Part shown: positions 2 to 7,862 of the stretch, piece by piece
Numbering within the stretch: position 1 is the first letter of the stretch
How the letters are laid out: the number at the start of each line of letters is the position of its first letter
Assembly: GCF_014652635.1 (NCBI RefSeq)
Contig: NZ_BMZE01000002.1
Coordinates: 787,562-851,561, forward strand
DNA length: 64,000 bases
Reading direction: 5' to 3'
Source: Devosia pacifica
GTDB taxonomy: Bacteria > Pseudomonadota > Alphaproteobacteria > Rhizobiales > Devosiaceae
Program-made: the position numbers and the translations under genes
The notes under the pieces: model-generated
Database searches by the model: none
Told to the model about the DNA's origin: nothing
Seen by the model: the letters and a program-made list of their open reading frames with translations, nothing else

Positions 2-43
2 TATCAGTCCCGCCAGGGCGTTAATGGGCAGGTGGCAGCATGA
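2..43 (+). CDS. 3' end of an upstream gene, possibly cheR (partial)
   Basis: An open frame enters from the left edge and ends in TGA at 41-43, overlapping the cheB start codon as ATGA. It would encode only the last 13 residues (YQSRQGVNGQVAA). A Tyr-containing tail directly before cheB would suit a CheR methyltransferase, because cheR and cheB are often adjacent, but the fragment is too short to identify. A second frame closing with TAA at 22-24 is an equally possible end of the upstream gene. Confidence 0.3.
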   Translation, partial: YQSRQGVNGQVAA

Positions 44-1086
44 GCATCAGGGTTCTTGTCGTCGACGATTCCGCGCTTATTCGTGACGTTCTCAAGAAAA
101 TGCTCGAACGCGAAGGCGACATCACCGTTGTCGGTACCGCGCGCGACCCGATGGAGGCACGCGAGAAGATCAAGGCCCTCGATCCTGACGTCGTGACACT
201 CGACATCGAGATGCCCAACATGAATGGCCTCGCCTTTCTCGAGCGGCTTATGCGCTTGCGGCCGACGCCGGTGGTGATGGTCTCGACGCTGACAACGAAG
301 GGGGCGAGCGAGACCTTGCTTGCGCTCGAACTGGGGGCCGTCGACTTCGTAGCCAAGCCGAATGCCGATCTCAGTGGCGGGCTCGAGACGTTCGGCATCG
401 GCTTGCGCGAGCGGATACGGGCGGCAGCCCGTGCCGACGTGCGCGCGCGCTCGCAGCGTGAAACTGGTACACAAGCGCCGTTGAAGTGGGCGGGATCCCC
501 GTCGGGGGCCCTGATCGCAATCGGCGCGTCAACCGGCGGGGTCGAGGCGATCCGTGCTGTGCTCACGAGGTTGCCGGCCGATGCGCCCCCGATCGCCATC
601 GCCCAGCACATGCCGGCCGGGTTCACCAGCCGCTTTGCCGCGCGCCTCAACGAATTGTGCCCGCATACCGTCGTTGAAGCAGAAGACCGAATGCAAATGC
701 GCGCCGGCCACGTTTATATCGCGCCTGGCGACTATCATCTGAGGATAGAGCGCAGCTCAGGCATCCTGAAGTGTCGCGTTGAGCACGATGAGCTGACGAG
801 CGGGCATCGCCCAAGCGTCGATGTGCTGTTTTCTTCGGTAGCCAAAGCCTTGGGCTCTCTGGCTGTTGGCGTGCTGCTGACCGGCATGGGCCGTGACGGA
901 GCAACCGGCCTTGGCGAGATGCGGAAAGCCGGAGCGCACACGATCGGCCAGAACCAGGCGAGCGCGCTGGTTTACGGAATGCCGCGTGTTGCCTTCGAGG
1001 AAGGCGCGGTCGTTGAGCAGGCGCCGATCGACGCCGTGGCAGAGCGGGTGGTCCATGCGCTCACACGACTGCGTAAGGCGGCGTGA
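40..1086 (+). CDS. cheB: CheB, protein-glutamate methylesterase/glutaminase
   Basis: A 348-residue two-domain chemotaxis response regulator that removes methyl groups from, and deamidates, chemoreceptor glutamates, giving adaptation. The receiver domain (about residues 3-120) has the acidic pair VVDD at 8-10, the phosphoacceptor Asp55 in LDIEMP and Lys106. A linker leads to the methylesterase domain (about 155-345) with the triad Ser164 in GASTGG, His190 in QHMPAG and Asp286 in TGMGRDGA. The length is normal for CheB. It is the first complete gene of a chemotaxis block and lies upstream of a CheY-like protein and three receptors, two of which carry a C-terminal xWxxF tail of the kind that can tether CheB/CheR. 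Confidence 0.96.
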   Translation: MSIRVLVVDDSALIRDVLKKMLEREGDITVVGTARDPMEAREKIKALDPDVVTLDIEMPNMNGLAFLERLMRLRPTPVVMVSTLTTKGASETLLALELGAVDFVAKPNADLSGGLETFGIGLRERIRAAARADVRARSQRETGTQAPLKWAGSPSGALIAIGASTGGVEAIRAVLTRLPADAPPIAIAQHMPAGFTSRFAARLNELCPHTVVEAEDRMQMRAGHVYIAPGDYHLRIERSSGILKCRVEHDELTSGHRPSVDVLFSSVAKALGSLAVGVLLTGMGRDGATGLGEMRKAGAHTIGQNQASALVYGMPRVAFEEGAVVEQAPIDAVAERVVHALTRLRKAA

Positions 1087-1187: not shown

Positions 1188-1577
1188 ATGCCCAAGGCTA
1201 GCGCGCTCAGCGTTATGATTGTCGACGACCAGCAGTCGATGCGCGGTATCTGTAAGTATATTCTCACGCAGCTTGGCTTCAAAGACATCGTGGAAGCCAA
1301 GAGCGGGCGCGACGCGTTGGGTAAGCTGGAGAAGGGGAATGTCGACCTGATCATTTCCGACTGGAACATGGACGATATTGACGGACTGACCTTGCTCAAG
1401 GTGATCCGTAAGCATCCGCGCACCCAGGCCATGCCATTCATCATGGCGACTGGCCGCTCCGATAAGGAACAGGTCAAGGAAGCGATTTCGTTCGGTGTCA
1501 ATAACTACATCATTAAACCGTTCGATGCCTCGACAATGAAAAAACGTATCGAGGCGGTGATCGGCGCGCTAACCTGA
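1188..1577 (+). CDS. CheY-like single-domain response regulator
   Basis: A 129-residue stand-alone receiver. The acidic pair is Asp13-Asp14 (IVDDQQS), the phosphoacceptor is Asp58 in ISDWNMD, the switch Thr is in the MATGRSD stretch near 88, and Lys110 sits in IIKPF, the usual chemotaxis CheY pattern. There is no output domain, so it probably acts by protein contact, at the flagellar motor or as a phosphate sink. It lies 101 bases after cheB. The Trp after the phosphoacceptor (DWNM) is typical of CheY and separates it from CpdR/DivK-type receivers. A GC hairpin with a T-rich tail follows. Confidence 0.9.
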   Translation: MPKASALSVMIVDDQQSMRGICKYILTQLGFKDIVEAKSGRDALGKLEKGNVDLIISDWNMDDIDGLTLLKVIRKHPRTQAMPFIMATGRSDKEQVKEAISFGVNNYIIKPFDASTMKKRIEAVIGALT

Positions 1578-1753: not shown

Positions 1754-2356
1754 ATGGCAGGACTGTTCTATACATTCAGGCGATGTTCGACCCTTATTCT
1801 TGCCGGTGCTTCGTGCCTGATGGTTCCTGTATCTGCGGGGGCGCATGAGTTTACCGCAGCGCTGGAGCAGATGGCCCACGATCACATCGCTCACATTGCC
1901 AGCGACCCAGATATTGTTCGCGCCGTAAAAGAGCAGAACCTGCAAACGGCGCTGCTTGGCGATGCGGAAATCGAAGCTCTTGATCAGACCTGGCGCGCGG
2001 AAGTCGACGCTGTCGATCAACCTTTCATCTCTGAAGTCATGGGCAAACCCGGCTCAACCCTCCTGTTCAACTATCAGGAACAGGCAGAAGGCCTTTTTAC
2101 CGAGATGTTCGTCACCGACGCACGTGGTCTCAATGTTGTGCAGAGCACGATGACTTCGGACTATTGGCAAGGGGACGAAGACAAGTGGCAGCAAAGCTTC
2201 GGACAAGGTCCAGGCGCCATTCACATCAGCGACATCGAGTATGACGACTCGAGCCAGGTCTTCCAAAGCCAGGTCAGTATTCCTGTCGTTGATTCCATCA
2301 CCAATGAAGCGATCGGTGCCATCACAGTTGGCGTCGACTTGTGGTACCTCGAATAA
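1754..2356 (+). CDS. Periplasmic Cache/PDC-like sensor protein, stand-alone
   Basis: A 200-residue protein with a signal peptide: an Arg-containing start, a hydrophobic run, then SAGAHE as likely cleavage region. The mature part looks like a single Cache (PDC) sensor fold, with a helical lead-in followed by FVTDARGLNVV, a central QGPGAIHIS loop and a closing strand AIGAITVGVDL, which is the pattern of receptor sensing domains. There is no membrane anchor or output domain. The ATG at 1754 is preferred over 1742 because GGAG lies 6 bases before it. The stop is 15 bases before a transmembrane chemoreceptor, so the two are probably co-transcribed, and this may be a soluble ligand-binding partner. 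The family assignment is from pattern only. Confidence 0.6.
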   Translation: MAGLFYTFRRCSTLILAGASCLMVPVSAGAHEFTAALEQMAHDHIAHIASDPDIVRAVKEQNLQTALLGDAEIEALDQTWRAEVDAVDQPFISEVMGKPGSTLLFNYQEQAEGLFTEMFVTDARGLNVVQSTMTSDYWQGDEDKWQQSFGQGPGAIHISDIEYDDSSQVFQSQVSIPVVDSITNEAIGAITVGVDLWYLE

Positions 2357-2371
2357 TCTGGGGCTGAACAG

Positions 2372-4333
2372 ATGAAGCTTTCACTTGCACAAAAGATCAC
2401 CGGACTTGTCAGTCTCGTCACGATTGTCCTGGTCATCACAGTTACTTTGCTCGGCAACTGGTTGTCTCTGCAGTTCACCACCAAGGAACTCATTCAATCT
2501 GAAAATCAACTGATTGAACTTCTGGGACGGCAGTCGGCTGGCTTCATCCGGTTCGGCAAGAGCGAAAGCCTGAGCCAGCAATTCGAAGAGTTCCAGGCTG
2601 ACGCGGCGATCGATTTTGCCGCTGGTGCCGCGTTCGGGCTCGATGGCAGCGTGCTGAGCGAAAGCCGCGCACCTGACCAAGCCGGGCTGGACCTTGCGTC
2701 CCCTGCGGCAGAGGCGATGCAATCGGGCACGACCATCTCCTACGTTTATGGGCAAACCCATGTCACAGCCACGCCGGTCTATTTCGGCATCAGTCAGAAG
2801 CTGGCGGGCGCGCTCGTGATTGCCTGGGACATGACCGGCAGCACCAATGCGGCAATCGGCAATGCTGTCACGGTCACCCTGACAGCGCTGGGCATCCTCG
2901 CTGTGGGCCTCGTCGGATTGGCGTTGTTTCTCAACCGCTTCCTCTCCCGTCCGATCCGCGCGCTGACAAAGGTCTCGACCCGTATCGCCAATAACGAGTT
3001 CGACGTCGGGATCGACGGCACCGAGCGCAAGGACGAGCTTGGCGAGATGGCGCGCGCCATTGAAGTGTTCCGGCAGAATGGCCTCAAGGTCTATGAAATG
3101 ACGGAGGCGGAGGCTGCCCGCGTACTGTCGGCCGAAAAGGAGCGCCGGGCCATGATGAGCCAATTGCAGGGCGCGTTCGGCGAGGTGGTCGATGCTGCCG
3201 GTAGCGGCGACTTCACGCGGCGCGTCGAGGTAGAATTTCCTGACGCGGAACTGAATACACTCGCTGCGGGGGTCAATCGGCTGGTGGCCAGCGTCGATGA
3301 AGGCTTGACTGCCACCGGCCAGGTGCTGACCGCCTTGGCGCAGACCGACCTGACGGTGCGCATGGAAGGATCTTTTGAGGGCAGCTTCGCGCGGTTGCAA
3401 TCGGATACCAACTCCGTGGCTGAAACGCTCACCACGCTCGTCGAGCGGATCAAGACCACCTCGCGTGCACTCAAGACGGCTACGGGCGAAATCCTTGCGG
3501 GCGCCAATGATTTGTCGGAGCGGACCACGCGTCAGGCGGCGACCATTGAGGAAACGTCAGCCGCGATGGAGCAACTTGCCAATACGGTGCTGCAGAATGC
3601 GGAGCGCGCCAAGGAAGCGAACGGCAATGCTGCAGCGGTGGCAAAGACCGCAGAAGACGGTGGCGAAGTGATGAGCCGCGCAACCCTTGCGATGGACAAG
3701 ATCACGCAGTCCTCCGCCAAGATCTCCAACATCATCGGCATGATCGACGACATCGCTTTCCAGACGAACCTTCTGGCGCTCAACGCCTCGGTTGAGGCTG
3801 CCCGCGCCGGCGAGGCCGGCAAGGGCTTCGCTGTCGTGGCAGTCGAAGTGCGGCGCCTGGCGCAGTCTGCGGCGCAGGCCTCCTCCGAGGTTAAGGTGCT
3901 GATCGAGCAGTCGGCGGACGAGGTCGCAAGTGGCTCGAAGCTGGTGACGGAGGCCTCGACGAAGCTCGAGGCAATGCTGGAAGCTGCGCGCGCCAACAAC
4001 ACACTGATCGAAGGCATCGCACGCGAAAGCCGCAGCCAGGCCTCAGCCATCGACGAAGTGAACGTTGCGGTCCGCCAGATGGACGAGATGACTCAGCACA
4101 ATGCGGCGCTGGTCGAACAAACAAACGCGGCCATCGAGCAAACGGAATCGCGTGCAAGCGAGCTCGATACCATCGTCGAGGTCTTCCGTACCAACAGCAG
4201 CCCTGGCGGCAATGTTGTTGCAACGATCTCGCCTTCGGAACCGGCACCCGCGCGCGGCAAGCCACGGCAGGCGGCCAAGGCCTATCTCACCGACGGCAAC
4301 GCTGCTATTTCCGACGACTGGAACGAATTCTAG
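2372..4333 (+). CDS. Methyl-accepting chemotaxis protein, membrane-bound
   Basis: A 653-residue chemoreceptor. A first transmembrane helix (about 9-31) and a periplasmic part of about 140 residues are followed by a second helix (about 171-191), a HAMP domain starting [11 protein letters not shown], and a second HAMP-like segment (about 270-340, ending near [13 protein letters not shown]). A long cytoplasmic coiled coil has its conserved hairpin tip around residues 460-495 ([21 protein letters not shown]). The tip contacts CheA and CheW. The C-terminus is DWNEF, an xWxxF pentapeptide like those that recruit CheR/CheB. It directly follows the free Cache-like periplasmic protein, which could present ligand to its small external domain. 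The ligand cannot be read from sequence. Confidence 0.93.
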
Positions 4334-4354: not shown

Positions 4355-4422
4355 CCTCGCCCCAAATTAAGCGGAGCGACGGACACTATACTGTGTTCGT
4401 CGCTTTTGCATTTGAGGGGCAA

Positions 4423-6129
4423 ATGTTGTTTTCTCGTCGTCGCGCCTATGAAGACAAGTCCAAGATTGATGCAATTTCGCGCTCTCAGGCGGTGATAGAG
4501 TTCTCGCTGGACGGCAACGTCCTCTCGGCCAACGAGAACTTCCTGAAGACATTGGGCTATGAGAGCGCGGAGATCCTTGGCAAGCATCACAGGATGTTTG
4601 TAGCCGATGATCATGCGAAGTCTCCTGAATATACGGAGTTCTGGCGATCGCTTGCTGCTGGAGAGTTTGTCTCAGGCGCCTTCAAGCGGATTGCCAAGGG
4701 CGGGCGAGAAATCTGGATCCAGGCCTCGTACAATCCGATTTTCGACAAAGCCGGGCGGCCGGTAAAGGTGATCAAGTTCGCAACGGACATCACCGAGCAG
4801 ACCCGCCGCGCGCTGGATAGCGCCGGAAAGATGGCGGCAATCTCTCGTTCTCAGGCTGTGATCGAGTTCAATCTCGATGGCACGGTGATAACCGCCAACG
4901 ACAATTTTCTCGGCGCGGTCGGCTATTCCCTCGACGAGATCAGGGGGCGCCACCATCGCATGTTCTGTGATCCTGGCTATGCAAGTAGCGATGAGTACGA
5001 GGATTTCTGGCGCCGTTTGCGCGGCGGAGACTATATGTCGGCCGAGTACAAGCGGATCGGCAAAGGCGGTAAGGAAATCTGGATCCAGGCAAGCTACAAT
5101 CCCGTGCTGGATGCCGATGGAAAGCCGATCAAGGTGGTCAAGTTTGCTTGTGACATTACCGAGCGCAAGCGCGGTGAAGGCATTATGGACTTGCTGACCG
5201 AAAGCCTCGAGAAGATGTCGAAAGGCGATCTGACCGGGCGAGTGGATACCCAATTTACCGGACGCCACGAAGAGTTGCGGCAGGCCTACAACGCTACGCT
5301 CGACAAGCTGGTGTCGATCGTCTCCGGTCTTCGCGAGACTTCGGCACGCGTCCGCGACGCGACCGGTGAGATTCTCTCCGGCGCCAATGACCTCGCGCAA
5401 AGAACCACACGGCAGGCGGCGACGATCGAAGAAACCTCCGCCTCAATGGAAGAATTGTCCGAGGCGGTGGTCACCAATGCCCGGCATGCAGATGCAGCGA
5501 GTGGAAAGGCGCGTGCGCTGACCGAAAGCGCACGGACCGGTGGAAAGGTGATGAATGAAGCGACCGAGGCGATGCAACGGATATCGGCCTCATCGCACAA
5601 GATTTCGAGCATTATCGGGATGATCGACGACATCGCGTTTCAGACCAATCTCTTGGCGCTCAATGCCTCGGTGGAGGCCGCGCGAGCCGGCGAAGCCGGC
5701 AAGGGCTTTGCCGTGGTTGCCGTGGAAGTCAGGCGCCTGGCGCAATCAGCCGCGGAAGCCTCATCAGAGGTGAAGGCCCTGATCGAACAATCCTCAAGCG
5801 AAGTCGGTAGTGGCGCCAAGCTTGTCACGGAAGCCTCACGCAGCCTCGAGAGCATACTGAGCGGAGCGGATGAGAGCGCCGAACTGATCGAACGCATTGC
5901 GCGCGCTGGCCAGCATCAGTCGACAGCCATCGAGTCAGTGAATACGGCGATCCGGCAGCTCGACGAGATGACTCAGCACAACGCTGCTCTGGTGGAAGAA
6001 ACGAACGCCGCGATCGAACAGACCGAAGGCCAGGCCCGTGAACTCGATCGTCTGGTCGAAGCCTTCAGATTTGGCAGTGGTACTTCTGCCCAGAAGCGGC
6101 CACCCCCTCGCGCACGTGTCGCCGCCTAA
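4423..6129 (+). CDS. Soluble double-PAS chemoreceptor (BdlA-like layout)
   Basis: A 568-residue receptor without transmembrane helices. Two near-duplicate PAS domains (about residues 10-130 and 131-255) share [26 protein letters not shown] segments and closing DITE motifs. A signalling coiled coil follows, with the hairpin tip [21 protein letters not shown] near residue 403. PAS-PAS-MCP without membrane anchor is the layout of cytoplasmic redox/energy receptors such as Pseudomonas BdlA or Aer-2-like proteins. The ATG at 4423 is preferred because GAGGGG lies at 4414-4419; an upstream GTG at 4393 has no such site. Unlike its two neighbours it ends in PPRARVAA, with no xWxxF tail. Whether FAD or heme is bound cannot be told. 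Confidence 0.9.
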
Positions 6130-6260: not shown

Positions 6261-7862
6261 ATGACCAAGACCCCGGCTAGTGACAGCCTCTCAACACGTT
6301 TGTCTTTTATTGGCCTCGATGCAGAGGCCAGTCAACGCATGGCAACGATGAGTGGGTCCGTAGAAAAGCACCTGCCTGTTGCCCTGGAGCTTTTCTACGA
6401 CAAGATCTCGGAAGTCCCGGCAGTCTCCAAGTTCTTCTCCGGCCGCGACCAGATGAGCCGCGCCCAGGGCAAGCAAACCGGCCACTGGCAGGCCATCGCG
6501 GCAGGGCGCTTTGACGGTGCCTATTTCGAAGCCAGCCAGAAGGTTGGATTGCGCCACGCGCAGATTGGGCTCGAGCCGCGCTGGCATATCGGCGGCTATG
6601 GCGTGATTGTTCAGACCCTTATTCAGGGCGTTCTGCGGGATGCGATGGCAGAGGCATTGCGCCCTGAGCCCGGTCGGTTCGGCCGTAACAAGCCGCTCGA
6701 TCCCGATGCGGTGATGAAAAAGGTCGACAATCTCGGCATCGTTTTGTCGGATATCGTCAAGGCGATGTTGCTCGACATCGACATCGGCGTCAGCGCCTAC
6801 TTCGACAAGCTCACCAGCGAAGCCGCTGATGCCGAAGCTGCGAATGCGGCGAAGATCAAGAAGGCCGTGGATGTGACCGGCGCGGTTCTCCAGGATCTGG
6901 CGCTGGGGGACCTGACCGCTCGCGTGAGCGAGGATCTCGATCCGGCCTTCAGCCAGATCAAAAACGATACCAATGCCGTTGCCGATCGGCTGACGGGGAT
7001 AGTCAGGCAGTTGCGCGATACCTCGCGAGTCCTCAAGACGGCGACAGGGGAAATCCTATCCGGCGCCAACGATCTGGCCGATAGAACCACGCGCCAAGCG
7101 GCAACCATCGAAGAAACGTCTGCTGCCATGGAACAGCTGGCGCAGACCATTTCCGATAATGCCGGTCGCGCGTCAGAGGCGAGTACAAAGGCGAAATCAG
7201 TTTCCTCGAGCGCTGAGGACGGCGGGCAGGTTATGTCCCAGGCGACCGAGGCCATGGAGAAGATCTCCAGTTCATCGAGCAAGATTTCCAAGATCATCGG
7301 GATGATCGATGACATTGCCTTCCAAACCAATCTGTTGGCGCTCAATGCCTCGGTAGAGGCAGCACGCGCAGGCGACGCCGGCAAGGGCTTTGCTGTGGTA
7401 GCCGTCGAAGTGCGCCGGCTGGCGCAATCGGCGGCCTCGGCTTCATCCGAGATCAAGGCACTTATCGAGACGAGTTCGGAAGAAGTGCTCGCTGGCTCGA
7501 AGCTGGTCGATCTTGCCTCTGAAAAGCTGGTTCAGATCGTCTCGGGCGCGCAGGAGAGCGCCAGCCTGATCGATGCCATTGCCAGCGCGAACAAAGCTCA
7601 GTCCGATGCGGTCAACGAGGTCGGTACAGCGGTGCGGCAGATGGACGAAATGACACAGCACAATGCTGCGCTGGTCGAAGAGACGAATGCAGCGATCGAA
7701 CAGACCGAGGCCCAGGCCACCGAACTCGATGGTATCGTCGAGATATTCAAGCTCGAGGCGTGGTCGCCGCAGGTTGTCGACGCTCGCGGTTCTCACGCTG
7801 CTCCGTCTCGGGGCGCGCGCAAAAGCGGCGCAAGTGCTGCGCCCGAATGGGCCGCCTTCTGA
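6261..7862 (+). CDS. Globin-coupled chemoreceptor (HemAT-like)
   Basis: A 533-residue soluble receptor. Residues about 10-180 form a sensor-globin (protoglobin-type) domain, with proximal heme histidine His99 in [19 protein letters not shown], which matches the His-x3-Gly-Leu-x-Pro-x-Trp pattern of globin-coupled sensors. A short linker (about 205-255) leads to the signalling coiled coil, whose tip [21 protein letters not shown] is near residue 351. It ends in EWAAF, an xWxxF CheR/CheB-tether-like tail. The family binds oxygen on heme and drives aerotaxis through CheA. It follows the double-PAS receptor, so the locus pairs two different soluble sensors, both plausible for oxygen or redox. Confidence 0.93.

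Follow-up and report, generated by a model that had tools for sequence, protein, structure and literature searches.

Introduction

Solute-binding proteins are able to stimulate chemoreceptors, the maltose-binding protein with Tar being an example. These are free periplasmic proteins that relay to chemoreceptors by docking (PMC9602780), and adjacent genes have been reported for sensor kinases that are activated by binding proteins (PMC11113362). Among stand-alone Cache proteins, Tasneem et al. 2004 noted a stand-alone Cache gene in Rhodopseudomonas that was predicted to share an operon with a ligand-gated channel (PMC549065), and a 2026 preprint describes stand-alone heme-binding Cache proteins, sCache_heme (DUF3365/Tll0287) (PMC12889525). 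Here we analyse a 64,000-nucleotide stretch of the Devosia pacifica genome (the window, in which positions are counted), where the gene of a small exported-looking protein with a predicted Cache fold, hereafter the sensor, directly precedes that of a methyl-accepting chemotaxis protein (MCP). We consider it likely that the sensor is a dedicated periplasmic co-receptor that recognises a conserved signal and, in the manner of binding proteins, docks on the MCP encoded beside it.

Results

A stand-alone protein with a predicted Cache fold

The sequence-only reading had described an exported-looking protein of 200 residues with FVTDARGLNVV and AIGAITVGVDL, Cache-like in appearance, lacking an anchor or output and encoded 15 bases ahead of a chemoreceptor. 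This description held throughout: both motifs lie in the sensor open reading frame (ORF), the only anchor-like feature is a signal-peptide-like start, there is no output domain, and the intergenic gap spans 2357-2371 with the MCP ATG at 2372. AlphaFold2 predicted a Cache/PDC fold, with N-terminal helices and a PAS-like central sheet as in solved Cache/PDC domains. For the periplasmic part of the MCP, proposed at residues 32-170, hydropathy gave the near-equal range 28-167, between transmembrane (TM) helices spanning residues 9-27 and 168-186.

The sensor N-terminus (MAGLFYTFRRCSTLILAGASCLMVPVSAGA followed by HEF) resembles a signal peptide by eye, and residues 1-30 have a block-mean predicted local distance difference test score (pLDDT) of 46-52 in the AlphaFold2 model; a start at the alternative in-frame ATG, position 1742, would lengthen the protein to 204 amino acids. 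A family search returned 981 proteins at E<=1e-3, which form a genuine family instead of chance matches. The best 120 of the 981, the window protein among them, are 183-276 amino acids long, and 119 of these had a usable start and length. Judged by hydropathy, a hydrophobic stretch falls within the first 30 residues in 118 of the 119, and an A-x-A-like site is present in all 119, while a lipobox-like pattern and a later hydrophobic segment each occur in three. The sensor itself has no Pfam match up to E 0.1, solute-binding-protein families included, and no NCBIfam match; the curated Pfam Cache models do not match the window protein, and its placement in the Cache superfamily rests on the predicted fold. 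Of 21 family members compared with Pfam, five match dCache_1 (best E 4e-4) and two match MCP-like_PDC_1 (best E 2e-4), all weakly.

Of 163 sensors, 154 retain the core motif TxDxxQGDE. Across all four classes of partner receptor described below, W80, D122, G125-V128, T134, D136, Q139-E142 and K144 are conserved at 80% or above, and these residues presumably line the pocket, as we take to be general for Cache domains.

The sensor gene is kept beside chemoreceptor genes

The two genes are neighbours in other genomes too, well beyond chance; the sets covered were relatives, the best-scoring loci and a sample of the class. The sensor was found in 34 of 151 related genomes (the window's genome counted), where 33 of 38 non-self copies are accompanied, within 600 bp, by an MCP ORF on the same strand; the remaining five are L052, L063, L065, L066 and L067. 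The same holds for 68 of the best 80 of 581 loci, which share several genomes with the relatives and are biased to close relatives, although they take in two Vibrio genomes and one Chromatiales genome; among the 12 misses, a profile scan found an MCP with the ectodomain GG-LBD, described below, in L132, L139 and L142, and the contig of L080 ends 175 bp past the sensor. A less biased set, 385 genomes drawn evenly from the Alphaproteobacteria (the class of the window), contains the sensor in 44 genomes, with an adjacent same-strand MCP for 45 of 59 non-self sensors. By arrangement, 43 of the 59 precede a co-directional MCP (27 in fetched loci and 16 by match coordinates), two follow one, four are divergent and one is the leading member of a tandem pair of sensors ahead of an MCP.

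In an MCP scan of 58 genomes, all eight sensor-bearing genomes have MCPs and none of the 25 genomes without MCPs has the sensor. Counts reached at least 49 MCPs per genome, from which alone we estimate that a random gene would be followed by an MCP in about 1-2% of cases at most.

Several loci depart from the simple pair. Two tandem sensors precede one GG-LBD MCP in L207 (3941-7047), and in L031 (7961-11286) such an MCP follows a Cache sensor and is itself followed by a second, diverged one. Sensors in L168, L171, L172 and L174 are divergent from MCPs with ectodomains of about 390-410 amino acids, for which no Pfam match was obtained in the two checked (L168 and L171). A sensor homologue in a 1.7 Mb genome (L194, 3950-4546) lies beside genes that by eye are nuo-like and has no MCP neighbour. 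PilJ-domain proteins in L100 (5113-6534) and L116 (4972-6504) match the Cache family of the sensor and have no output domain; the genes downstream of the former resemble, by eye, a TRAP transporter.

A core group of one receptor ectodomain goes with the sensor

Most partners share an ectodomain of about 140 amino acids with a predicted Cache fold, for which we coin the name GG-LBD; in structural comparison it matches the single-Cache sensor kinase WalK best. A GG-LBD profile gave 24 matches in the 151 relatives: all 22 strong ones (E<=1.5e-22) adjoin a sensor, the other two are weak and partial (E ~3e-6) and lie in sensor-free genomes, and none of the 117 sensor-free relatives has a strong match. 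The class sample holds 35 non-self matches at E<=1e-10, of which those at 120 bits or above adjoin a sensor in 14 of 15 cases, the exception being G420. With all loci pooled, most of them fetched by way of the sensor, 86 of 106 distinct GG-LBD MCPs (at least 40 bits) have a sensor within 600 bp. A core group of GG-LBDs thus goes with the sensor, while a diverged group mostly does not.

Two of the diverged GG-LBD MCPs have other exported-looking proteins encoded directly ahead of them. In L154 (3064-5662) the place of the Cache sensor is taken by an ABC_sub_bind (PF04392) protein whose start resembles a signal peptide, 49 bp from the MCP, and in L166 (2934-4944) a small DUF4399 protein precedes the MCP by 13 bp. 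Few as they are, these two cases hint that GG-LBD may be made for receiving input from periplasmic partners.

The sensor follows the receptor ectodomain

Across 82 GG-LBD pairs, sensor tree distances were compared with those of two parts of the partner MCP. The correlation is stronger for the ectodomain (Spearman 0.57, Pearson 0.36) than for the signalling domain (Spearman 0.36, Pearson 0.25); since species history is common to both, only the difference between them is informative. This difference is 0.21 (bootstrap 95% interval 0.09-0.34), and none of 999 permutations reached the observed value; the partial rank correlations are 0.49 for the ectodomain and 0.14 for the signalling domain. The sensor tree therefore follows the receptor ectodomain more than the signalling domain.

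Partner types also sort on a tree of 163 sensors, with 25 changes versus 70 when shuffled, on a quick tree supported by the Shimodaira-Hasegawa-like approximate likelihood ratio test (SH-aLRT) only, in which 63 of 160 inner branches are weak and some are long. With labels other than GG assigned by ectodomain length, 31 of 34 CHASE3-size partners belong to one sensor clade (support 100), and nine of ten dCache-size partners, together with one unclassified MCP, belong to another (support 96). Pfam supports the CHASE3 label in L057, L184 and L201, and the dCache_1 label, at scores under the curated threshold, in L068, L033 and L041. Residues G193, S175 and Q171 differ between the GG and CHASE3-size classes (E in 91%, N in 76% and R in 71% of CHASE3-size members); these are candidate sites of partner contact. 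In L201 (3962-7705), a Cache sensor and a CHASE3 MCP are followed by a 431-residue protein whose C-terminal part matches Cache (dCache_1, below cut-off).

Genomic setting

The features of the locus are listed in Table 1. Further upstream, beyond the window, lie CheA, CheW, CheD and CheR in this order, with the gap between CheW and CheD unassigned, which puts the pair on the downstream side of a chemotaxis cluster. A single sensor copy and seven MCPsignal matches are present in the genome.

Table 1 Features of the sensor-MCP locus and its neighbours
Feature	Position	Strand	Basis or remark
CheB, upstream, same gene cluster	40..1086	+	
Stand-alone CheY-like receiver, gene preceding the sensor	1188..1577	+	
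Stand-alone periplasmic Cache/PDC sensor protein (predicted), 200 aa	1754..2356	+	ORF translation, predicted fold
Predicted signal peptide, sensor residues 1-30	1754..1843	+	by eye and hydropathy
TSDYWQGDE, sensor residues 134-142	2153..2179	+	core motif conserved in family
Partner chemoreceptor (MCP), 653 aa	2372..4333	+	TM1 - GG-LBD - TM2 - HAMP - HAMP_2 - MCPsignal
MCP periplasmic ligand-binding domain, residues 28-167	2453..2872	+	GG-LBD family, single Cache fold predicted
GFIRFGK, in GG-LBD	2540..2560	+	window's version of GGIRFGK consensus
MCPsignal domain (PF00015), MCP residues 420-574	3629..4093	+	
MCP with two PAS domains, downstream neighbour	4393..6129	+	
MCP with protoglobin domain, downstream neighbour	6261..7862	+	

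Discussion

The sensor is encoded beside its receptor and conserved with it, as expected of a co-receptor, and gene order, co-occurrence and co-evolution together support the suggestion that it reports to this receptor. In the mechanism that we propose, the sensor would be exported and fold as a single Cache domain, bind a small molecule in the pocket typical of Cache domains and dock on the periplasmic Cache-type domain of the neighbouring MCP, and docking, or a ligand-induced change in docking, would alter the control of CheA by the MCP. Export, ligand binding, docking, this direction of signalling and a chemotaxis output of the pair are thus what we infer from the computed features. As the core motif is nearly constant across partner types, one ligand class would be expected for the sensor family.

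A number of observations weigh against this reading. Only 18 of the 35 non-self GG-LBD matches in the class sample adjoin a sensor, and below 120 bits only four of 20 do; diverged GG-LBDs are thus mostly without it, and GG-LBD alone does not require the sensor. Nine of the 59 class-sample sensors have no MCP neighbour (four of these nine are lower-scoring ORFs of 404-452 amino acids), and the sensors of L052 and L067 adjoin enzyme genes. Foldseek TM-scores of the sensor reach just ~0.3-0.45, and the fuller TSDYWQGDE-like pattern is found in only 24 of 34 CHASE3-size members. Species history inflates mirror-tree correlations, whose Pearson values (0.36 and 0.25) are lower. No sensor fused to an output domain was seen, the longest open frame among 99 listed matches being 476 amino acids, so fusions provide no evidence for contact with the MCP. 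Finally, partner ectodomains vary widely (Cache-like, CHASE3 and dCache_1), and one docking surface would have to suit them all.

An unlikely alternative is that the Cache protein binds no ligand and acts as an accessory modulator, a constitutive subunit or brake on the stability or signalling level of the MCP, comparable to WalH/WalI (YycH/YycI) for WalK; to our knowledge, WalH and WalI have no Cache fold. Conserved adjacency and co-evolution are equally compatible with such a role, and WalK, the best structural match of GG-LBD, has its activity set by WalH/WalI (PMC8534201). However, the sensor residues conserved at 80% or above are kept in all four partner classes despite the differing kinds of ectodomain, a pattern that a binding site fits better than a partner surface.

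We find it rather improbable that the sensor performs an independent periplasmic task, scavenging, buffering or handing over a compound or serving in redox chemistry, and is merely co-transcribed with chemotaxis genes. Some members, such as L170, L175, L192 and L194, do lack an MCP neighbour, and stand-alone heme Cache proteins have been given redox-related roles (PMC12889525), yet the heme motif CXXCH occurs in none of the 120 listed sensor-family proteins, and the MCP adjacency of 45 in 59, the strict dependence of GG-LBD on the sensor in relatives and the stronger covariation with the ectodomain than with the signalling domain exceed what co-transcription would produce. Hitchhiking in gene clusters, adjacency devoid of any functional link, is hardly credible: several MCP genes are clustered in the closest relatives of the window, where other genes would also neighbour MCPs, but the adjacency holds across families, in the Vibrio and Chromatiales genomes and in both gene orders, and each kind of partner ectodomain is for the most part confined to particular sensor clades.

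Returning to the co-receptor role, a more tentative extension, possible but doubtful, is that the widespread sensor family is a portable free-Cache module, which with one conserved ligand pocket has been plugged into several unrelated ectodomains (GG-LBD, CHASE3 and dCache). With GG-LBD it might form a double Cache in trans, the sensor being membrane-distal and the MCP domain membrane-proximal; this model is attractive for the GG-LBD pairs and would not hold for CHASE3 partners.

If the co-receptor reading is true, chemotaxis would gain a new class of co-receptor, in which a conserved free Cache protein is paired with its matching receptor ectodomain. Receptors with no known ligand for their own domain could be accounted for in this way. 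Screening ligands against the receptor domain alone would overlook such systems, which would also provide a test bed for the rewiring of one sensing module to different receptors. The sequence-only reading regarded free Cache sensors that report to a receptor as rarely described, which stands in part: our literature searches returned no Cache family in a chemoreceptor co-receptor role with its own receptor ectodomain class, and a term search of Upadhyay 2016 (PMC4822843) returned no passage on stand-alone, soluble or secreted Cache proteins, whereas stand-alone Cache proteins as such were remarked upon in 2004 (PMC549065) and 2026 (PMC12889525).

Compared with the described systems, the pair resembles WalK with WalH/WalI in that separate proteins would set receptor activity, although WalH/WalI are membrane proteins and WalK is a kinase and not an MCP (PMC8534201). 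With sCache_heme the sensor shares a single Cache domain without an output module; those proteins carry covalent heme through CXXCH (PMC12889525), a motif absent from the 120 listed sensor-family proteins. In the Rhodopseudomonas case a stand-alone Cache protein was likewise proposed to cooperate with an adjacent receptor, there in one bacterium and with a channel instead of an MCP, and the passage concerned describes no family or partner domain (PMC549065). Unlike solute-binding-protein systems, the locus has no transporter gene between or directly beside the sensor and the MCP, and the free partner is a Cache domain and not a binding-protein fold. Like them, it combines a free periplasmic protein with a receptor that has its own ectodomain, and the docking relay that we propose would follow the same principle (PMC9602780).
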